Positions 315 through 57,365 of a DNA stretch of 64,000 nt are shown in pieces. Position 1 is the first letter of the stretch. Each line of letters begins with the position of its first letter. Both the position numbers and the translations under genes were made by a program. The stretch is taken from assembly GCA_031277105.1 (NCBI GenBank), contig JAISLW010000268.1, positions 1 to 64,000 on the forward strand, in the 5' to 3' direction. The notes beneath the pieces were generated by a model. It saw only the letters and a program-made list of their open reading frames with translations. It did no database searches and was not told the DNA's origin. This DNA is from Planctomycetaceae bacterium. GTDB taxonomy: Bacteria; Planctomycetota; Planctomycetia; Pirellulales; Thermoguttaceae.

Positions 315-2162
315 TTACCATCCGCTTGCTACACGTCGTCGCATAGTTGCAATTAAGTTGAAAGCGCCAGCCGATGCGTCAACTTGGTCTTTGTACCTCG
401 ACGACGGGAAGTATTGTAACTCGGCTATGTAATCCGTATTCCATTCGCCTGGCACTAACGTAACATTGTACCCGTTGACTTGAGCGCTGAACGGTTCCGC
501 TCGCGTTTCCTTGTGCGTATCCGCTTTGTCTATTTTAGTTACAAACCCCGCAAGATTACGAACAGTTGAAATCGCCGATTCAAAACCGCCACTGCCAGGC
601 TCTTGCTCAATCCCAATTACAACTGATTTGCCGTCCCTTTCGGCAGTTTGTCTGATCAACCGTTCTCTTGCATCCGAATCCCACCTGCCCCTAATAACAT
701 CAAGCACATAAAACTTACCCGATCTAGTTACGCCCAATTTAGCGCCTACCGTAAAACAAGCCGTCTTTTTGACCGAAATCGCTTTGTCCCAATACCGGAT
801 CGCATACGTAACAGGATCACTCGGATCAACATGACCTACCCGCAAACGGTCAATCAAAAACATACCGCCACTACGCGGTATCGGTTGCTGGTCATATTGA
901 CACGCATAACCGTATTCGCCCATCCACTTTCGACGCTGTTCCAATAAATCCCGCGATAACCGCAACGGATCAAGCAACCCGTCAACATAATTCAATTTGA
1001 CCTCTTCCGGCAAAACCTTTTGACCTTCACTACAATCCGCAGGCAAACAAATATGCTTAAACGAACCCTCTTTTGAATTGTCAATCCAATCACCCGTCGG
1101 ATCATTTTGATGCAACCGCTGCATAATCATAATTATCGGCGTAACAGTCGCATCGACAGTTCTAGTCGTAATCGTTTCATGCAACCACAAACTAGCATTA
1201 CGCAAACCCGCTTCCGAAGCCGCTTCCATCGGGTTAATCGGATCATCTATGACTATACAATTATGAACCAAAAAACCATTAGCAAAAAAATTATGAGCGC
1301 CCTCTACCTCAATGTCATATACAAACTCCGTTTCATTGCTAACTCTTGTAATCGATTCGATCCTTGCTCTTTGTTTTTCCGTGAACGATACGAGGTCGTC
1401 CCCGATTTGTAAATCCTTCGCCTCTTTGTAACCGAATCCATAAACGAAAAATTTATGGTCTGAAGTTGCTCTAACTTTACGTCCGCCAGCTTTAATTTCA
1501 TATAAATTTTTACACTCCCTTTTAATTATTGCTACAACTTTTTTATAAACTAGAACGCCATCTATATCTTGTGATAAAACATTATCGCCTACTTGTATTT
1601 GTTCTATCGGTTTTACGTCTTGAAATACAGTTACTAAAGTTCCAGCGGGCATACAGTGGGCGTGTTTGCCCGTAATCGCTCCCCCTATACCTGCACAATA
1701 TCGCTCGCCCGATTTCGTATTGGTGAAATGCGTAGATTGCCGCAAACCTAAAACGATTTCAGGAAAACAACGCTGAAATAATTCAGATTGAATTACGTTG
1801 AGATTCTTGCGACTAAAATCTTCCGCCAAACCGCCGCTGTACGAACACGCTATTATCCGAGCGCTAGGCATCCGAACCCATGTATAAGCAGGCAAAAAAA
1901 TTGAGAAAATCGTACTTTTGGTCGTACTCGGCGGAATGTTAATTACGAGGTCGTATAATTTTGGCAAACCCTTAAATACGCGTTCAAGCATTATCTGCAC
2001 TTCGTCGCATAAATATTTTATATGCCAATTCCAAATAGGCTTGTCAACAATAATCGTTCCCCAAAACTCTTGAACGAAACGAAAAAAAGAATGCTTCGTT
2101 ATATCCCTGATTAATTCTATCTCCGCATCCTGCGGAATACACACAGATAATTCTTCACCCAT
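315..2162 (-). CDS. Phage terminase large subunit with mini-intein
   Basis: ATPase and nuclease motor that packages phage DNA into the prohead. The ATPase part shows a degenerate Walker A (PPSTTKST, residues 77-84), Walker B IVIDD just after the intein (303-307), and the terminase motif MQRLHQNDPTGDW. The C-terminal RNase-H-like nuclease has acidic residues in RYWDKA (D459), GIEQEP (E519) and KDQVDA (D592/D595). A 132-residue intein (170-301) must be spliced out between His and Cys directly before Walker B. I chose the ATG at 2162; a TTG four codons earlier (2174) is possible, and neither has a clear ribosome site. It follows the ParB-like gene. The probable small subunit is far away at 56.2 kb. 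Confidence 0.93.
   Translation of the reverse strand: MGEELSVCIPQDAEIELIRDITKHSFFRFVQEFWGTIIVDKPIWNWHIKYLCDEVQIMLERVFKGLPKLYDLVINIPPSTTKSTIFSIFLPAYTWVRMPSARIIACSYSGGLAEDFSRKNLNVIQSELFQRCFPEIVLGLRQSTHFTNTKSGERYCAGIGGAITGKHAHCMPAGTLVTVFQDVKPIEQIQVGDNVLSQDIDGVLVYKKVVAIIKRECKNLYEIKAGGRKVRATSDHKFFVYGFGYKEAKDLQIGDDLVSFTEKQRARIESITRVSNETEFVYDIEVEGAHNFFANGFLVHNCIVIDDPINPMEAASEAGLRNASLWLHETITTRTVDATVTPIIMIMQRLHQNDPTGDWIDNSKEGSFKHICLPADCSEGQKVLPEEVKLNYVDGLLDPLRLSRDLLEQRRKWMGEYGYACQYDQQPIPRSGGMFLIDRLRVGHVDPSDPVTYAIRYWDKAISVKKTACFTVGAKLGVTRSGKFYVLDVIRGRWDSDARERLIRQTAERDGKSVVIGIEQEPGSGGFESAISTVRNLAGFVTKIDKADTHKETRAEPFSAQVNGYNVTLVPGEWNTDYIAELQYFPSSRYKDQVDASAGAFNLIATMRRRVASGW
1260..1655 (-). other. Mini-intein in the terminase
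   Basis: A 132-residue insertion with all splicing blocks. It starts with Cys (CMPAGTLV), has a block B TSDH, and ends VHN followed by Cys as the first residue of the C-extein. It lacks room for a homing endonuclease, so it is a mini-intein. It sits directly before the Walker B strand, a conserved site typical for inteins. Splicing should be needed for a working terminase. Confidence 0.92.
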
Positions 2163-2196
2163 ACGTCTAAACAAATTTCTTTAATTTTTAACGCTA

Positions 2197-2955
2197 TTAT
2201 TTCGCTAACGCTGATTCGCAGATTTCACACATTTTTAGTAACGCAGTTGACCTGTTTTTTATTTTGAATTGTTTTTGTACTTTCGACATGATATTTATGA
2301 ACCAATCAGGATCGCCGATAACAATGCTTGTCGATTCAACGTCTAAACCGACTTTTTGTTCTAGCGAGTCCAATAAATGTTCTACCCGTTCCTTATTCGC
2401 TTCGCAAAACATAAACGTCAACGAATATAACTCCAAATCATTTTCTGCTATCGTCGATAAATCTAACGCCTTGCACTCAAACAATAATTTCTCGTCAATT
2501 CCACTATATTGCTTCAAAAATAAATCATTCAAATCAGCGTATAAACTTTTCAAAATAGTCAAATCATCTTGACCTGTAATTGCGTTGTGACTTAACTGAA
2601 TTGCCAATTGGCGTTTTTCATCAAAATCTTTTTCATCGCCGTACAAGATCAATATTTTATCCAAATTGGCTTTTATTGCCGCTTTCACTCTGTGATTACC
2701 GCTGATAATTTTATACTTCCCGTCCTGTCGCTTAATTCCAAACGGTAATTGACTCAAAAAACCGTCATGTTCAATATTATTTGTAAGTTTATCTTGTTGT
2801 TCTTTTGTCATGTACCGTGCGTTTCTGTCAAGCAATACGCAATCGTTTTTAGGCGAAACGTAAGCCAATTGATACGGCGTTATCAATTGATTTATTTCAA
2901 CTAATCTAGCGTTGACATCCAAATTTATTGATCCAAATTTTTCCTGTTCTTCCAT
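2197..2955 (-). CDS. ParB-like nuclease-domain protein
   Basis: 252 residues. The N-terminal third matches the ParB/sulfiredoxin-like fold: GFLSQLPFGI, then a hydrophobic strand and the motif ISGNHRVKAA near residues 84-93. Helical segments follow. Such proteins often sit next to terminase or methyltransferase genes in phages, but their job there is mostly unknown. The start overlaps the preceding gene by 31 bases, so the two are translationally linked. It is one of four ParB-domain proteins in the window (also 49283, 54528, 55638). A role in DNA binding or nicking is inference. Confidence 0.75.
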   Translation of the reverse strand: MEEQEKFGSINLDVNARLVEINQLITPYQLAYVSPKNDCVLLDRNARYMTKEQQDKLTNNIEHDGFLSQLPFGIKRQDGKYKIISGNHRVKAAIKANLDKILILYGDEKDFDEKRQLAIQLSHNAITGQDDLTILKSLYADLNDLFLKQYSGIDEKLLFECKALDLSTIAENDLELYSLTFMFCEANKERVEHLLDSLEQKVGLDVESTSIVIGDPDWFINIMSKVQKQFKIKNRSTALLKMCEICESALAK

Positions 2956-4253
2956 TTTTTATAACATTCCTTAATTGATAAATTCGTAAATTTGGCGGTA
3001 TAAACCAGTTTATTGTTTTCATTACTGCCTTGTTTTTGGAAAATGCCGCGATACTTCATTGAAACAGGTTTATCTGTATAAACTGACGTTTGCAGCCCCT
3101 TGTAATCGAATGCGTAATGCCGTCGCAATAATTTAGATACATCCGCCGATCTCAATAAATACAATAACAATTTCGATAACCTGTCCACCGACGACGGCAC
3201 AACAAAATCACTCAACAAACACATCAATTCAAAAACATCCTGCGTTCCTAAACTCTTTGAAAACGTAGCAAACCCAAATAATTTTTTATCCGCCAAAAAA
3301 CCAATCGCAAAATCACCGCCACAATTGTAATCCACTCTAACAGACATAAATAAATGTTTGTAATGATTGACTAATTTAGTTGGGATTTGTACTACTCTTA
3401 TATCAGTTTCATCTGTAATAATATCGTTAATCGACAATATTTCGGGCGTTTTGTCTAACGTTTTTATTTGCGGTCGTAAATAAAAAGTATCATCAGTAAT
3501 ATTCGTATAAAAATAAACGGAACGTTTACCCGCTTCCTTATCAACTCTGCCCGTAATAAACGGTTTGGTTTCGGGATACAACATATCGCTAAAAACGCAC
3601 GCTCGCTTTGACTCCAATAATTCCCTGTAATATGACCCTGCGTTACCTGAATCGAATAATTCATACGAAGGTCGCTCGTACTCAAAAGAGCGCTCTACAT
3701 AATTGTACAACTTCTCATATCCGCCCTTATAAGTCGGTGCGTACAAAAATACCGTACTATTTTCATTAGCGTTGTTAAGATGCGCCTTAAAATCGCCAAA
3801 AAAGAAATCCGCAATATTAAAATCAAAACACTTACTTTTCTGAAACGAATCAATTGTTTTATCAAAAAATTGTTTCGATTCCTTTTTGTACGTATCGCAC
3901 ATAACCGCTTGATACTCATTTTTTCTGCGGGCAAATTGTCCATATTGCATCGTAAACATCACTTTGACTAACATCGTGTACGGCGTTTCTGACCATGTAT
4001 CAAACACGGCAAGCAATTCGTCATTAACACATTTAACAGAAAACGATTCCTTTTGCACTATCGCCGCAACTAAACGACTGTACAACGAAACGTCATTAGA
4101 ATACACGTTAAAACCATAAAAAGACGCTATTCGGTCAAACGTAAAATTACCAGAACAACCTACATAAATATTCGGGTACTTCACTTTGTTTACCGTACTC
4201 AATATACGTTCAACTGCAATACAACTGTCCTTGTCCAACGAACCCACAAACAT
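2925..4253 (-). CDS. Putative phage DNA adenine methyltransferase-like / antirestriction protein
   Basis: About 442 residues from the ATG at 4253, which follows GAGGGAT and the stop of the DUF488 gene. The N-terminus looks like a D12-type methyltransferase: VGCSGNFTFDR (cofactor loop) and NDVSLYS. The expected DPPY is replaced by APTYKGGYEKLY. This resembles a group of phage proteins annotated as antirestriction adenine methyltransferases. The C-terminal part (LSKLLLYLLRS, VYTDKPVSMKYRG, TNLSIKECYKKW) has the feel of an acetyltransferase or Mom-like domain, suggesting base modification against restriction. The altered catalytic motif means plain methylation is uncertain. Assignment rests on recalled family patterns only. 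Confidence 0.55.
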   Translation of the reverse strand: MFVGSLDKDSCIAVERILSTVNKVKYPNIYVGCSGNFTFDRIASFYGFNVYSNDVSLYSRLVAAIVQKESFSVKCVNDELLAVFDTWSETPYTMLVKVMFTMQYGQFARRKNEYQAVMCDTYKKESKQFFDKTIDSFQKSKCFDFNIADFFFGDFKAHLNNANENSTVFLYAPTYKGGYEKLYNYVERSFEYERPSYELFDSGNAGSYYRELLESKRACVFSDMLYPETKPFITGRVDKEAGKRSVYFYTNITDDTFYLRPQIKTLDKTPEILSINDIITDETDIRVVQIPTKLVNHYKHLFMSVRVDYNCGGDFAIGFLADKKLFGFATFSKSLGTQDVFELMCLLSDFVVPSSVDRLSKLLLYLLRSADVSKLLRRHYAFDYKGLQTSVYTDKPVSMKYRGIFQKQGSNENNKLVYTAKFTNLSIKECYKKWKNRKNLDQ

Positions 4254-4254
4254 A

Positions 4255-4764
4255 TCATCCCTCGTCAAATAAAGATTTTATTTCCGCTTTCGGTTTGTCT
4301 GATAATTCTTCGATGATTTCGCCTGTTTTATTTTCCCACCATTCGGCAAACATACGACGATGACACCATTGACCTACTTTACTCACATCCTCGTAGCACA
4401 ACAAAACTACAGGTTTTAAACAGTTCGTACTTAAAGTTGCATTTACATTCGCCTGCTTATCTATCGGGCGGCAGGTTTTTACGCTTTTGCATTGCTGATT
4501 TTCAAGTACGATTTGTTTATTAGTTTCAAACGCTTCAAACGCCGCCCGTATTTTATTTACGCCTACCGATTCTAATATCTTAAAATACGCCTCACGATAA
4601 ACAGATTGATCCGTCAACTCTTTGACCATCTCCCACGTCGGAGCAATAATAGTCAAATAAGTATCAACCTTGAGAAATCGATACTTACCAACCGAAATCC
4701 CAACCAAATAATAATCGCCGCCACGCAACAAACGATTACCATAATAACTCGTAAATATACGCAT
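4255..4764 (-). CDS. DUF488-family protein with an in-frame palindromic insertion
   Basis: 169 residues. Typical DUF488 features: GGDYYLVGISVGKY near the N-terminus, and VVLLCYE (118-124) followed by WCHRRMFAEWW (133-143) near the C-terminus. Between the helix IRAAFEAFETNK and VVLLCYE the family normally has only a few residues. Here about 34 extra residues (roughly 84-117, Cys- and Lys-rich) are present. They are encoded by a copy of the 95-base palindromic element found in spacers at 13959 and 29043. The reading frame stays open through it. The gene is the first of a run with the methyltransferase-like, ParB-like and terminase genes. Function of phage DUF488 proteins is unknown. Confidence 0.8.
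   Translation of the reverse strand: MRIFTSYYGNRLLRGGDYYLVGISVGKYRFLKVDTYLTIIAPTWEMVKELTDQSVYREAYFKILESVGVNKIRAAFEAFETNKQIVLENQQCKSVKTCRPIDKQANVNATLSTNCLKPVVLLCYEDVSKVGQWCHRRMFAEWWENKTGEIIEELSDKPKAEIKSLFDEG
4417..4511 (-). repeat. Palindromic 95-base element, copy inside the DUF488 gene
   Basis: Aligns without gaps to the copies at 13959-14053 and 29043-29137. Shared parts are the left end (TTTTAAACxGTTCG), a central inverted repeat (CGCCTGC ... GGCAGG), TTTxACGCTTTT, and the right end TTTCAAGTACGA. The outer ends are imperfect inverted repeats of each other. It encodes residues 85-116 of the host gene and keeps the frame. Confidence 0.85.
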
Positions 4765-13958: not shown

Positions 13959-14053
13959 TAAACTGTTCGCAATTGAGTTTTCGTTTACCTTCGCCTGCCT
14001 AGCTTTCGGACGGCAGGCTTTGACGCTTTTAAATCGCTGAATTTCAAGTACGA
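13959..14053. repeat. Palindromic 95-base element, spacer copy
   Basis: Full copy with central stem GCCTGCC ... GGCAGGC and imperfect inverted ends (ACTGTTCGCAATTGA against TCAAGTACGAGCAGT). About 95% identical to the copy at 29043 and colinear with the one inside the DUF488 gene at 4417. Confidence 0.85.
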
Positions 14054-14099
14054 GCAGTATAAAAATCTACACCCTACACCCTACGCCCTATTCCTAATT

Positions 14100-22944: not shown

Positions 22945-24066
22945 ATGTTTAATCACGAATTTATCAAGAATCAAGAGACTTTGACCGTTTGTCAATTACT
23001 CAACAGTAATACTTTTATAATCCCAATTTACAAACGACCCTACGTTTGGCATAAACCACAATGCGAAACGTTGTGGAACGATCTGTACAATTTATTTGAA
23101 ACCGAAAAACAAAACAACAATAAACCTAACAAATCACATTGTTTTCCTGCCTGTTCTGACGAAAGTATTGACGATCAAGTTTACTCGCTTGGTTCTGTAT
23201 TTTTATCGATTCCAAATTTACACACTGACGAAGCGTTTAAATTAACTTTACCTAACGCCAGCGACCGACCGTATTGTATAGTTGACGGTCAACAACGTTT
23301 AATCACGATTTCATTACTCTTGCGGGCGTTGTGGCATGACGACTTGCAACAATACGTCGAATTTATACGCTGCTTTCAACGCTGCAATAAATACAACTTC
23401 AATGAATCGTTAGGTTCGCGTTTCTTGTTTAGCAATTTGGACTTGCGTTACGATTTAGATGAAACTTTGCAAACAGTCAAAGAACCCGAACTAACCCATA
23501 CGCTATATTACAAGAATTACAGTTACTTCAAAAATAAAATTGACTCGCTTTTTGATAAATTGGAAAATCGCAAAAAATTTATCAATACTATTTTGCACAA
23601 AACGTACTTTTCTAAAAATATTTACCCAAACGAAATTAGAGCAATGACGTTTTTTGAAACGCCAAAACATAAAGGTCTTGTCCAAACCGACGGCGATAAA
23701 CTTAAAATAAAACTCGCTAAACTTGCGTTAGAAGGGTCAATGACTACTTTTGCTAGTTTCGATAATTTTAGTTCAGCGTGGTGGCTTTTAGAATCAAAAA
23801 TTGACGCGTTACGTAATGCGTCAAATAGAAAAATAACGCTTAATAAATTGTTTCAGCGTTATATGATCGCATTACGCAAAAAACACAACGATACAACGCC
23901 GCTAGTCAAAATCAAAGATTTCTTTGAAGGTAACGTAAAAGATACGCAAAATAATAAAAGAAAAACAAACAAATACACATTTGAAAAAATCGGATGGTCA
24001 AACGTAATCACATCACTAGAACAAATAATAAACGAAATGACCTCACAATCACAACAACAAAAATAA
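22945..24066 (+). CDS. DUF262 (GmrSD N-terminal-like) protein
   Basis: 373 residues with DUF262 hallmarks: PIYKRPYVW (27-35) and VDGQQRLIT (113-121), the conserved nucleotide-handling motif of this ParB-related fold. Family members occur in type IV restriction systems (GmrS/GmrD) and other anti-phage proteins. The usual C-terminal DUF1524 HNH nuclease motif is not visible, so it may be a regulator or need a partner. Plus-strand orientation against the surrounding minus-strand genes marks it as an acquired cargo gene. Confidence 0.8.
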   Translation: MFNHEFIKNQETLTVCQLLNSNTFIIPIYKRPYVWHKPQCETLWNDLYNLFETEKQNNNKPNKSHCFPACSDESIDDQVYSLGSVFLSIPNLHTDEAFKLTLPNASDRPYCIVDGQQRLITISLLLRALWHDDLQQYVEFIRCFQRCNKYNFNESLGSRFLFSNLDLRYDLDETLQTVKEPELTHTLYYKNYSYFKNKIDSLFDKLENRKKFINTILHKTYFSKNIYPNEIRAMTFFETPKHKGLVQTDGDKLKIKLAKLALEGSMTTFASFDNFSSAWWLLESKIDALRNASNRKITLNKLFQRYMIALRKKHNDTTPLVKIKDFFEGNVKDTQNNKRKTNKYTFEKIGWSNVITSLEQIINEMTSQSQQQK

Positions 24067-29042: not shown

Positions 29043-29137
29043 TAAACTGTTCGCAATTGAGTTTTCGTTTATCTTCGCCTGCCTAGCTTTCGGACGGCAG
29101 GCTTTGACGCTTTTAAATCAATGAATTTCAAGGACGA
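29043..29137. repeat. Palindromic 95-base element, spacer copy
   Basis: Same length and structure as 13959-14053, with only a few base differences. It lies between the ImmA gene start (28994) and the end of the gene at 29291, in a 296-base spacer that also holds a leader repeat near 29250. Confidence 0.85.
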
Positions 29138-29290
29138 GCTGTTTACACACAATACACGCATTGATTTACAACAACCTTGAATATGTTTTTCCATTTCTGC
29201 ATAATTCTACCAATTACACGAAACCAGTCAACGGCAATTTTTTTTTTTGAGGGACAAGTGAGACAATTTTTTGTAACGATATATTGTTTT

Positions 29291-38221: not shown

Positions 38222-38274
38222 TTAAAAAAATTTTAAACTGTCCTTACTTGAAATTGAATTTACATTCTCACGCC

Positions 38275-57150: not shown

Positions 57151-57177
57151 ACCACAAAGAATATAAAAAGAATTATT

Positions 57178-57273
57178 TAAACTGTTCGTAATTGAATTTA
57201 CGTTTACATTCGCTTGCCCGTAGAGATACAATGCATTGCGTCTCTACTTTAAATCAATGAATTTCAAATACGA
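57178..57273. repeat. Palindromic element, variant stem
   Basis: Left and right ends match the 95-base element (TAAACTGTTCG, TTTAAATCAATGAATTTCAA). The centre is replaced by GTAGAGA ... CAATGCATTG ... TCTCTAC, a different perfect stem. A decayed relative with the same core is at 32569. Confidence 0.8.
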
Positions 57274-57365
57274 GTCGTATAGCGCTTTACCTCCCATTTC
57301 GCCAACCAATAACAGCCAACGAAACCAAAAACACAATTTACCACAATAAAAAAATCACGTGTCAA

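Follow-up and report, generated by a model that had tools for sequence, protein, structure and literature searches.

A Host-Derived Palindromic Mobile Element Inserted in Frame in a DUF488-Type Phage Gene

The DUF488-Type Gene and Its Phage Context

The window analysed here is a stretch of 64,000 nucleotides corresponding to bases 1-64000 of a contig of 171,649 bp (C529), which is binned in a draft bacterial genome (G000) of 5.19 Mb distributed over 553 contigs. The contig is assigned to a phage because of its PHROG matches, among them a large terminase, a DNA primase, a DnaB-like helicase, a head maturation protease, head/portal proteins, a DNA polymerase and a helicase; 151 of its 161 predicted genes lie on one strand. 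The source of the bacterial genome is probably a termite-gut member of the Planctomycetota, since the DUF488 gene of a same-genus genome (G006) is identical to that of "Planctomycetaceae bacterium Th196P3bin110", Th196 being presumably a termite-gut sample. Two other genes of the window deserve mention. The large terminase gene (315-2174, minus strand) carries a short (mini-)intein, with an Intein_splicing domain at residues 189-305 of the 619-aa ORF, and a GmrSD-type gene with a type IV restriction N-terminal domain (22945-24066, plus strand), which lies on the strand that most phage genes do not use, is possibly a defence gene carried by the phage.

The gene under study (Table 1) is open throughout, as originally claimed, and its 3' end shares 14 bp with the next gene, which is DAM-like/GNAT (2925-4268). 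The encoded protein itself scores below the Pfam cut-off; its naming as a DUF488-N3 protein holds because the uninterrupted same-genus homologue of G006 matches PF22751 (DUF488-N3a, E 6e-7). The conserved DUF488-N3 motifs VLLCYED and WCHR..FAEWW are kept (V120, C123, W133, C134, H135 and R136 are present), both sides of the insert being intact. The gene is apparently part of a phage cassette that is conserved, since its neighbourhood of ParB-like, DAM-like/GNAT and DUF488 genes (window 2197-4764) recurs in an IMG/VR phage (L033) and partly in G006 (L022), where the neighbours were identified by eye from their translations. This cassette is possibly a DNA-modification module. A fold search of the PDB with the predicted DUF488 structure gave no significant match.

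Table 1. Coordinates of the interrupted gene, of the inserted element and of further element copies in the window
Feature	Position	Strand	Basis or remark
DUF488-N3-type gene, 169 aa	4255..4764	-	ORF and translation, homologues, Pfam; interrupted in frame by the element
TTTTA target pentanucleotide, left (5') border of element	4414..4418	+	sequence
Palindromic mobile element, 101 bp, antisense to the DUF488 gene	4419..4519	+	translation in the gene: KQIVLENQQCKSVKTCRPIDKQANVNATLSTNC
Left arm of terminal inverted repeat	4417..4432	+	fold of window:4413-4519, z -4.4 (RNA parameters)
Right arm of terminal inverted repeat	4503..4519	+	fold
Central hairpin (CCTGC...GCAGG)	4451..4476	+	fold
Intergenic copy	13961..14061	+	99% to a host copy
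Intergenic copy	29045..29145	+	96% to a host copy
Diverged intergenic copy	57177..57274	+	83% to nearest host copy
Possible left-end fragment (weak)	38233..38274	+	profile E 0.023

The In-Frame Insert

The linker leading from a helix to the VLLCYED strand has 48 aa only in the window protein, compared with 12-26 aa in 146 DUF488 homologues drawn from GTDB genomes and IMG/VR. The closest homologue, that of G006, can be aligned with residues 2-75 and 113-154 of the window protein and is devoid of the 34 residues, and the DUF488 protein of phage FP_Brigit is also uninterrupted. The original prediction, an addition of about 34 residues separating a helix from the VVLLCYE strand, was thus borne out; its coordinates, 4417-4511, located the element correctly and fell about 3 bp short on the left, the TTTTA target being counted in, and 8 bp short on the right. 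An origin without any insertion, that is, an ancient linker extension resembling the repeat, or recombination or gene conversion between repeats, is extremely unlikely. The DUF488 copy is indeed fairly diverged (84% to the nearest host copy), but it aligns to the element over its full length, both ends and the TTTTA border included, the segment is absent from every one of the 146 homologues, so that distant DUF488 proteins carrying it independently of the DNA element were not found among them, and nested empty sites show that real insertion took place elsewhere.

As a conserved GKP in relatives suggests, the ancestral site may have been CAGGTTTATTAG, encoding NKP. The gene would then have gained 34 codons (102 bp); as the modal gain per element is 101 bp, keeping the DUF488 frame took one extra base. 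The gene would have stayed open because this net change is a multiple of three and because no stop codon interrupts the element in that antisense frame. The DUF488 copy differs from the element consensus at 21 of 101 positions and, of the three antisense frames, only the one read in DUF488 is open. Yet 21 random substitutions left the frame open with P about 0.53 in a neutral simulation, and the openness of the frame is therefore neither significant nor proof of anything by itself.

In an AlphaFold model built on a 45-sequence alignment, the DUF488 protein has a mean pLDDT of 83 and a core at 90+, with low values (49-66) confined to the insert region (about residues 81-110). The insert is accordingly modelled as a floppy or disordered loop beside a well-predicted core. 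In the model proposed below, the protein would still be made and working.

Structure and Copy Number of the Element Family

The element begins after TTTTA as AACTGTTCGCACTTGA..., ends with ...TCAAGTACGAGCAGTATA and is modally 101 bp long. Its imperfect terminal inverted repeats (AACTGTTCGCACTTGA / TACTGCTCGTACTTGA) are symmetric at 12 of 16 positions on average, and a GCCTGCC/GGCAGGC hairpin occupies its centre. When the 95-bp segment first delimited was used in blastn, the two spacer repeats claimed at 13959 and 29043 were confirmed (13959-14053, 80%, E 1.8e-15; 29043-29137, 76%, E 8e-9), along with a partial match at 57178. An iterated profile search retrieved 13 copies on the whole phage contig and, in an unbiased 687-kb sample of other contigs, 211 copies, from which about 1,540 copies (about 0.3 per kb) are estimated for the host; the reversed sequence of the same host sample, used as a control, gave 0 matches. 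The original reading of the element within its phage setting was incomplete, given that it is not a feature of the phage but a mobile repeat which is spread over the host genome and has repeatedly entered the phage. At one host locus (C369:10311-10609) three copies stand in tandem with a spacing of exactly 102 bp. The element is a new family of a known kind, that of small mobile, MITE-like repeats.

A stable hairpin (RNA z -3.6 to -4.7) and a mostly intergenic location are also what would be expected from a functional RNA, a terminator or a regulatory hairpin amplified for its function. This explanation is nevertheless very unlikely: no Rfam match was obtained in the window, RNAalifold produced no consensus structure from the element copies, and covariation of the two arms is slight to the point of being negligible (symmetry z 3.2, with a tiny effect). 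Moreover, intergenic copies are under-represented in convergent gaps (8.6% vs 15% expected) and over-represented in divergent ones (36% vs 28%), and the nested insertions described below do not fit it either.

Insertion Behaviour and Target Choice

The sampled host DNA has at least 10 full copies that are nested in an older one, all at the same internal point, CGCTTTTA^AATCG, and followed by the right half of that older copy (e.g., C531:34012, L309:2249, C452:6733 and C364:1309). All nested copies have the same orientation, and double nestings occur. Insertion is real, since these "Russian doll" copies show the empty site directly. The flank profile of 241 copies revealed TTT before the left TA in 63% and AAA after the right TA in 6%; with a TTTTA-like 5' flank and an unlike 3' flank, the target is asymmetric, meaning that insertion is orientation-specific. 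A scan for target duplications showed no enriched duplicated k-mer beyond a possible TA.

These data bear on whether the element is a classical MITE of an IS630/Tc1-mariner-type transposon that duplicates a TA target. Such an origin would account for the terminal inverted repeats and the TA at both junctions, and DDE_3 (IS630-type) genes do exist in the genome. It is, however, unlikely, because neither the flank asymmetry nor same-orientation nesting is expected from a symmetric TA target, which requires random orientation at re-used sites, a pattern that was not seen; in addition, the IS630-type loci examined lack the two element ends. More generally, no transposase flanked by the ends of the element was found among the Y1 and DDE_3 loci examined in this genome, which is 86% complete. 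Neither of its two Y1 transposases is flanked by the element, no TnpB was detected, and a search for long elements with matching ends around an ORF returned only weak, unconvincing pairs. The preferred, although unproven, mechanism is mobilisation in trans by a single-strand (HUH/Y1-like) enzyme, by analogy with IS200/IS605-type transposition, of which one-sided targeting is typical. As a separate observation, one of the two Y1 transposase genes (C168:8187-8522, L296) is flanked by copies of a different palindrome, ACCGCAGGTCTCTGACCTGCGGTT, and resembles a RAYT with its own REP family.

Copies Within Genes

Of 378 host copies, only 15 (4%) overlap a predicted ORF; for positions taken at random the figure would be 71%. 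Just two lie well inside long genes, both in frame. In a YfhO-type gene the element is read in the same antisense frame as in DUF488, and the same-genus homologues of G004 and G007 are without the segment. In a PMT_2-type glycosyltransferase gene it has the sense orientation and an internal indel; a G012 homologue has an element in the same region. A further YfhO-type homologue (L317, in contig C334 of G009) contains another, different insert at the position that the element occupies in the G000 gene. In-frame insertion is therefore rare and not confined to the phage, and such copies are best read as survivors of selection.

The parallel initially drawn with the Rickettsia palindromic elements (RPEs) stands as regards in-frame fusion and fails as regards frequency. 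That the element is a true RPE analogue, shaped for coding insertion and with the peptide as selected product, is quite improbable. Among the frames read in DUF488 and in the YfhO-type gene, a single one of the consensus is open from end to end, but one open frame in six over about 33 codons is what chance alone gives. Besides the scarcity of copies in ORFs, the frame is lost in diverged intergenic copies (27% open at 75-90 bits), the PMT_2 case is read in a different frame and the modal element, with its net length of 101 bp, causes a frameshift. The related notion of an element coding by design was rejected on account of this net length and of the single open frame expected by chance.

Transfer Between Host and Phage

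Most of the well-conserved copies in the phage each have a different host copy as their closest match, with identities of 100% (the copy at 167381), 99% (13959), 96% (29042), 92%, 92% and 84% (the DUF488 copy). For the copy at 167381 the identity extends over 106 bp, and its flanks differ from those of the host copy. These comparisons indicate repeated transfer into the phage, which links the phage to this host. A further group is older and more diverged, its members being about 78-89% identical to each other or to the host; it includes the copies at 122276-135894 of the phage contig (L038, L039) and is more characteristic of the phage than of the sampled host DNA.

Within the genus, the genomes G004, G012 and G009 contain diverged relatives of the element and G007 gives a weak match; 11 genomes from other genera of the order yielded none. 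The element was not found when phage and plasmid collections were searched by blastn, and exact-pattern scans of IMG/VR with three element parts retrieved nothing, a looser 18-mer giving two chance matches.

Proposed Model and Significance

Taken together, the data favour, with a probability of about 0.87, a non-autonomous palindromic transposable element native to the host that has entered the phage several times, once in frame in DUF488, where it is tolerated as a disordered loop. In the corresponding model, this small element of the phage's bacterial host would insert directly after the 3' end of a TTTTA-like pentanucleotide in one strand, in a fixed orientation relative to the target, each insertion adding about 101 bp and at most a 2-bp TA duplication. 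Copies from the host chromosome would have entered the phage genome several times, one of them landing in a non-essential surface linker of the DUF488-N3-type protein, and its fixation there would have been near-neutral.

A bolder version can be put forward only tentatively, and is rather doubtful as a whole: a host-specific, self-targeting repeat in very high copy number would move by a new type of mechanism (orientation-specific TTTTA insertion), shuttle repeatedly between host and phage and remodel the proteins of both by in-frame insertion, thereby marking the host of the phage and supplying it with new protein segments.

The element family is unusually dense (about 0.3 per kb), with an orientation-specific target, and its filled and empty sites form a natural series for the study of repeat movement. 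In addition, near-identical host-derived sequence ties an uncultured phage of 172 kb to its bacterial host independently of CRISPR evidence. A limited literature search found no case of an in-frame palindromic repeat in a phage gene.

Comparison with Known Systems

Palindromic repeats inserted in frame are already known from Rickettsia, and there are reports of them for other bacterial MITEs. RPEs are palindromes of 105-146 bp with an open frame that fuse in frame into host proteins (PMC2229807, PMC10969869), about half of the first ones described being in ORFs (PMC10969869). The present element shares with them, by description, a palindrome whose open frame fuses in frame into proteins, and it is set apart, again by description, by its mostly intergenic location (4% in ORFs), its TTTTA target and a host other than Rickettsia. 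As for the MITEs ERIC, Correia and RUP, in-frame fusions were reported for several (PMC2229807); size, terminal inverted repeats, TA at the ends and the absence of own coding capacity are common features, whereas the asymmetric target is not, and no parental transposon was found. REP sequences are palindromes of 20-40 bp that are mobilised by the RAYT they flank, unlike the element of about 101 bp described here; the Y1 gene of C168 is flanked by a different repeat.

PATEs derived from IS200/IS605, mobilised by Y1 (HUH) transposition, use a short target that lies on the 5' side alone, show no clear duplication and take their orientation from the target (PMC3119063). The element resembles them in its 5' target oligonucleotide, in the lack of clear duplication and in the orientation set by the target, and differs in having terminal inverted repeats that span the whole element instead of separate near-terminal palindromes, with no cognate TnpA found. 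Finally, SMR-A of Haloquadratum walsbyi is about 110 bp long and occurs in up to 54 copies, and its inverted terminal repeats bear no relation to known transposons; it makes no target duplication, has no transposase gene and prefers other mobile elements as insertion sites (PMC3119063). Compared by description, the two are alike in size, terminal inverted repeats, lack of clear target duplication and of a detected transposase, and also in targeting mobile elements, at least 10 copies being nested here at one internal site of another copy. The present repeat is distinguished by being a planctomycete element of about 1,540 copies that targets its own internal TTTTA site, found also in a phage and in frame in genes.
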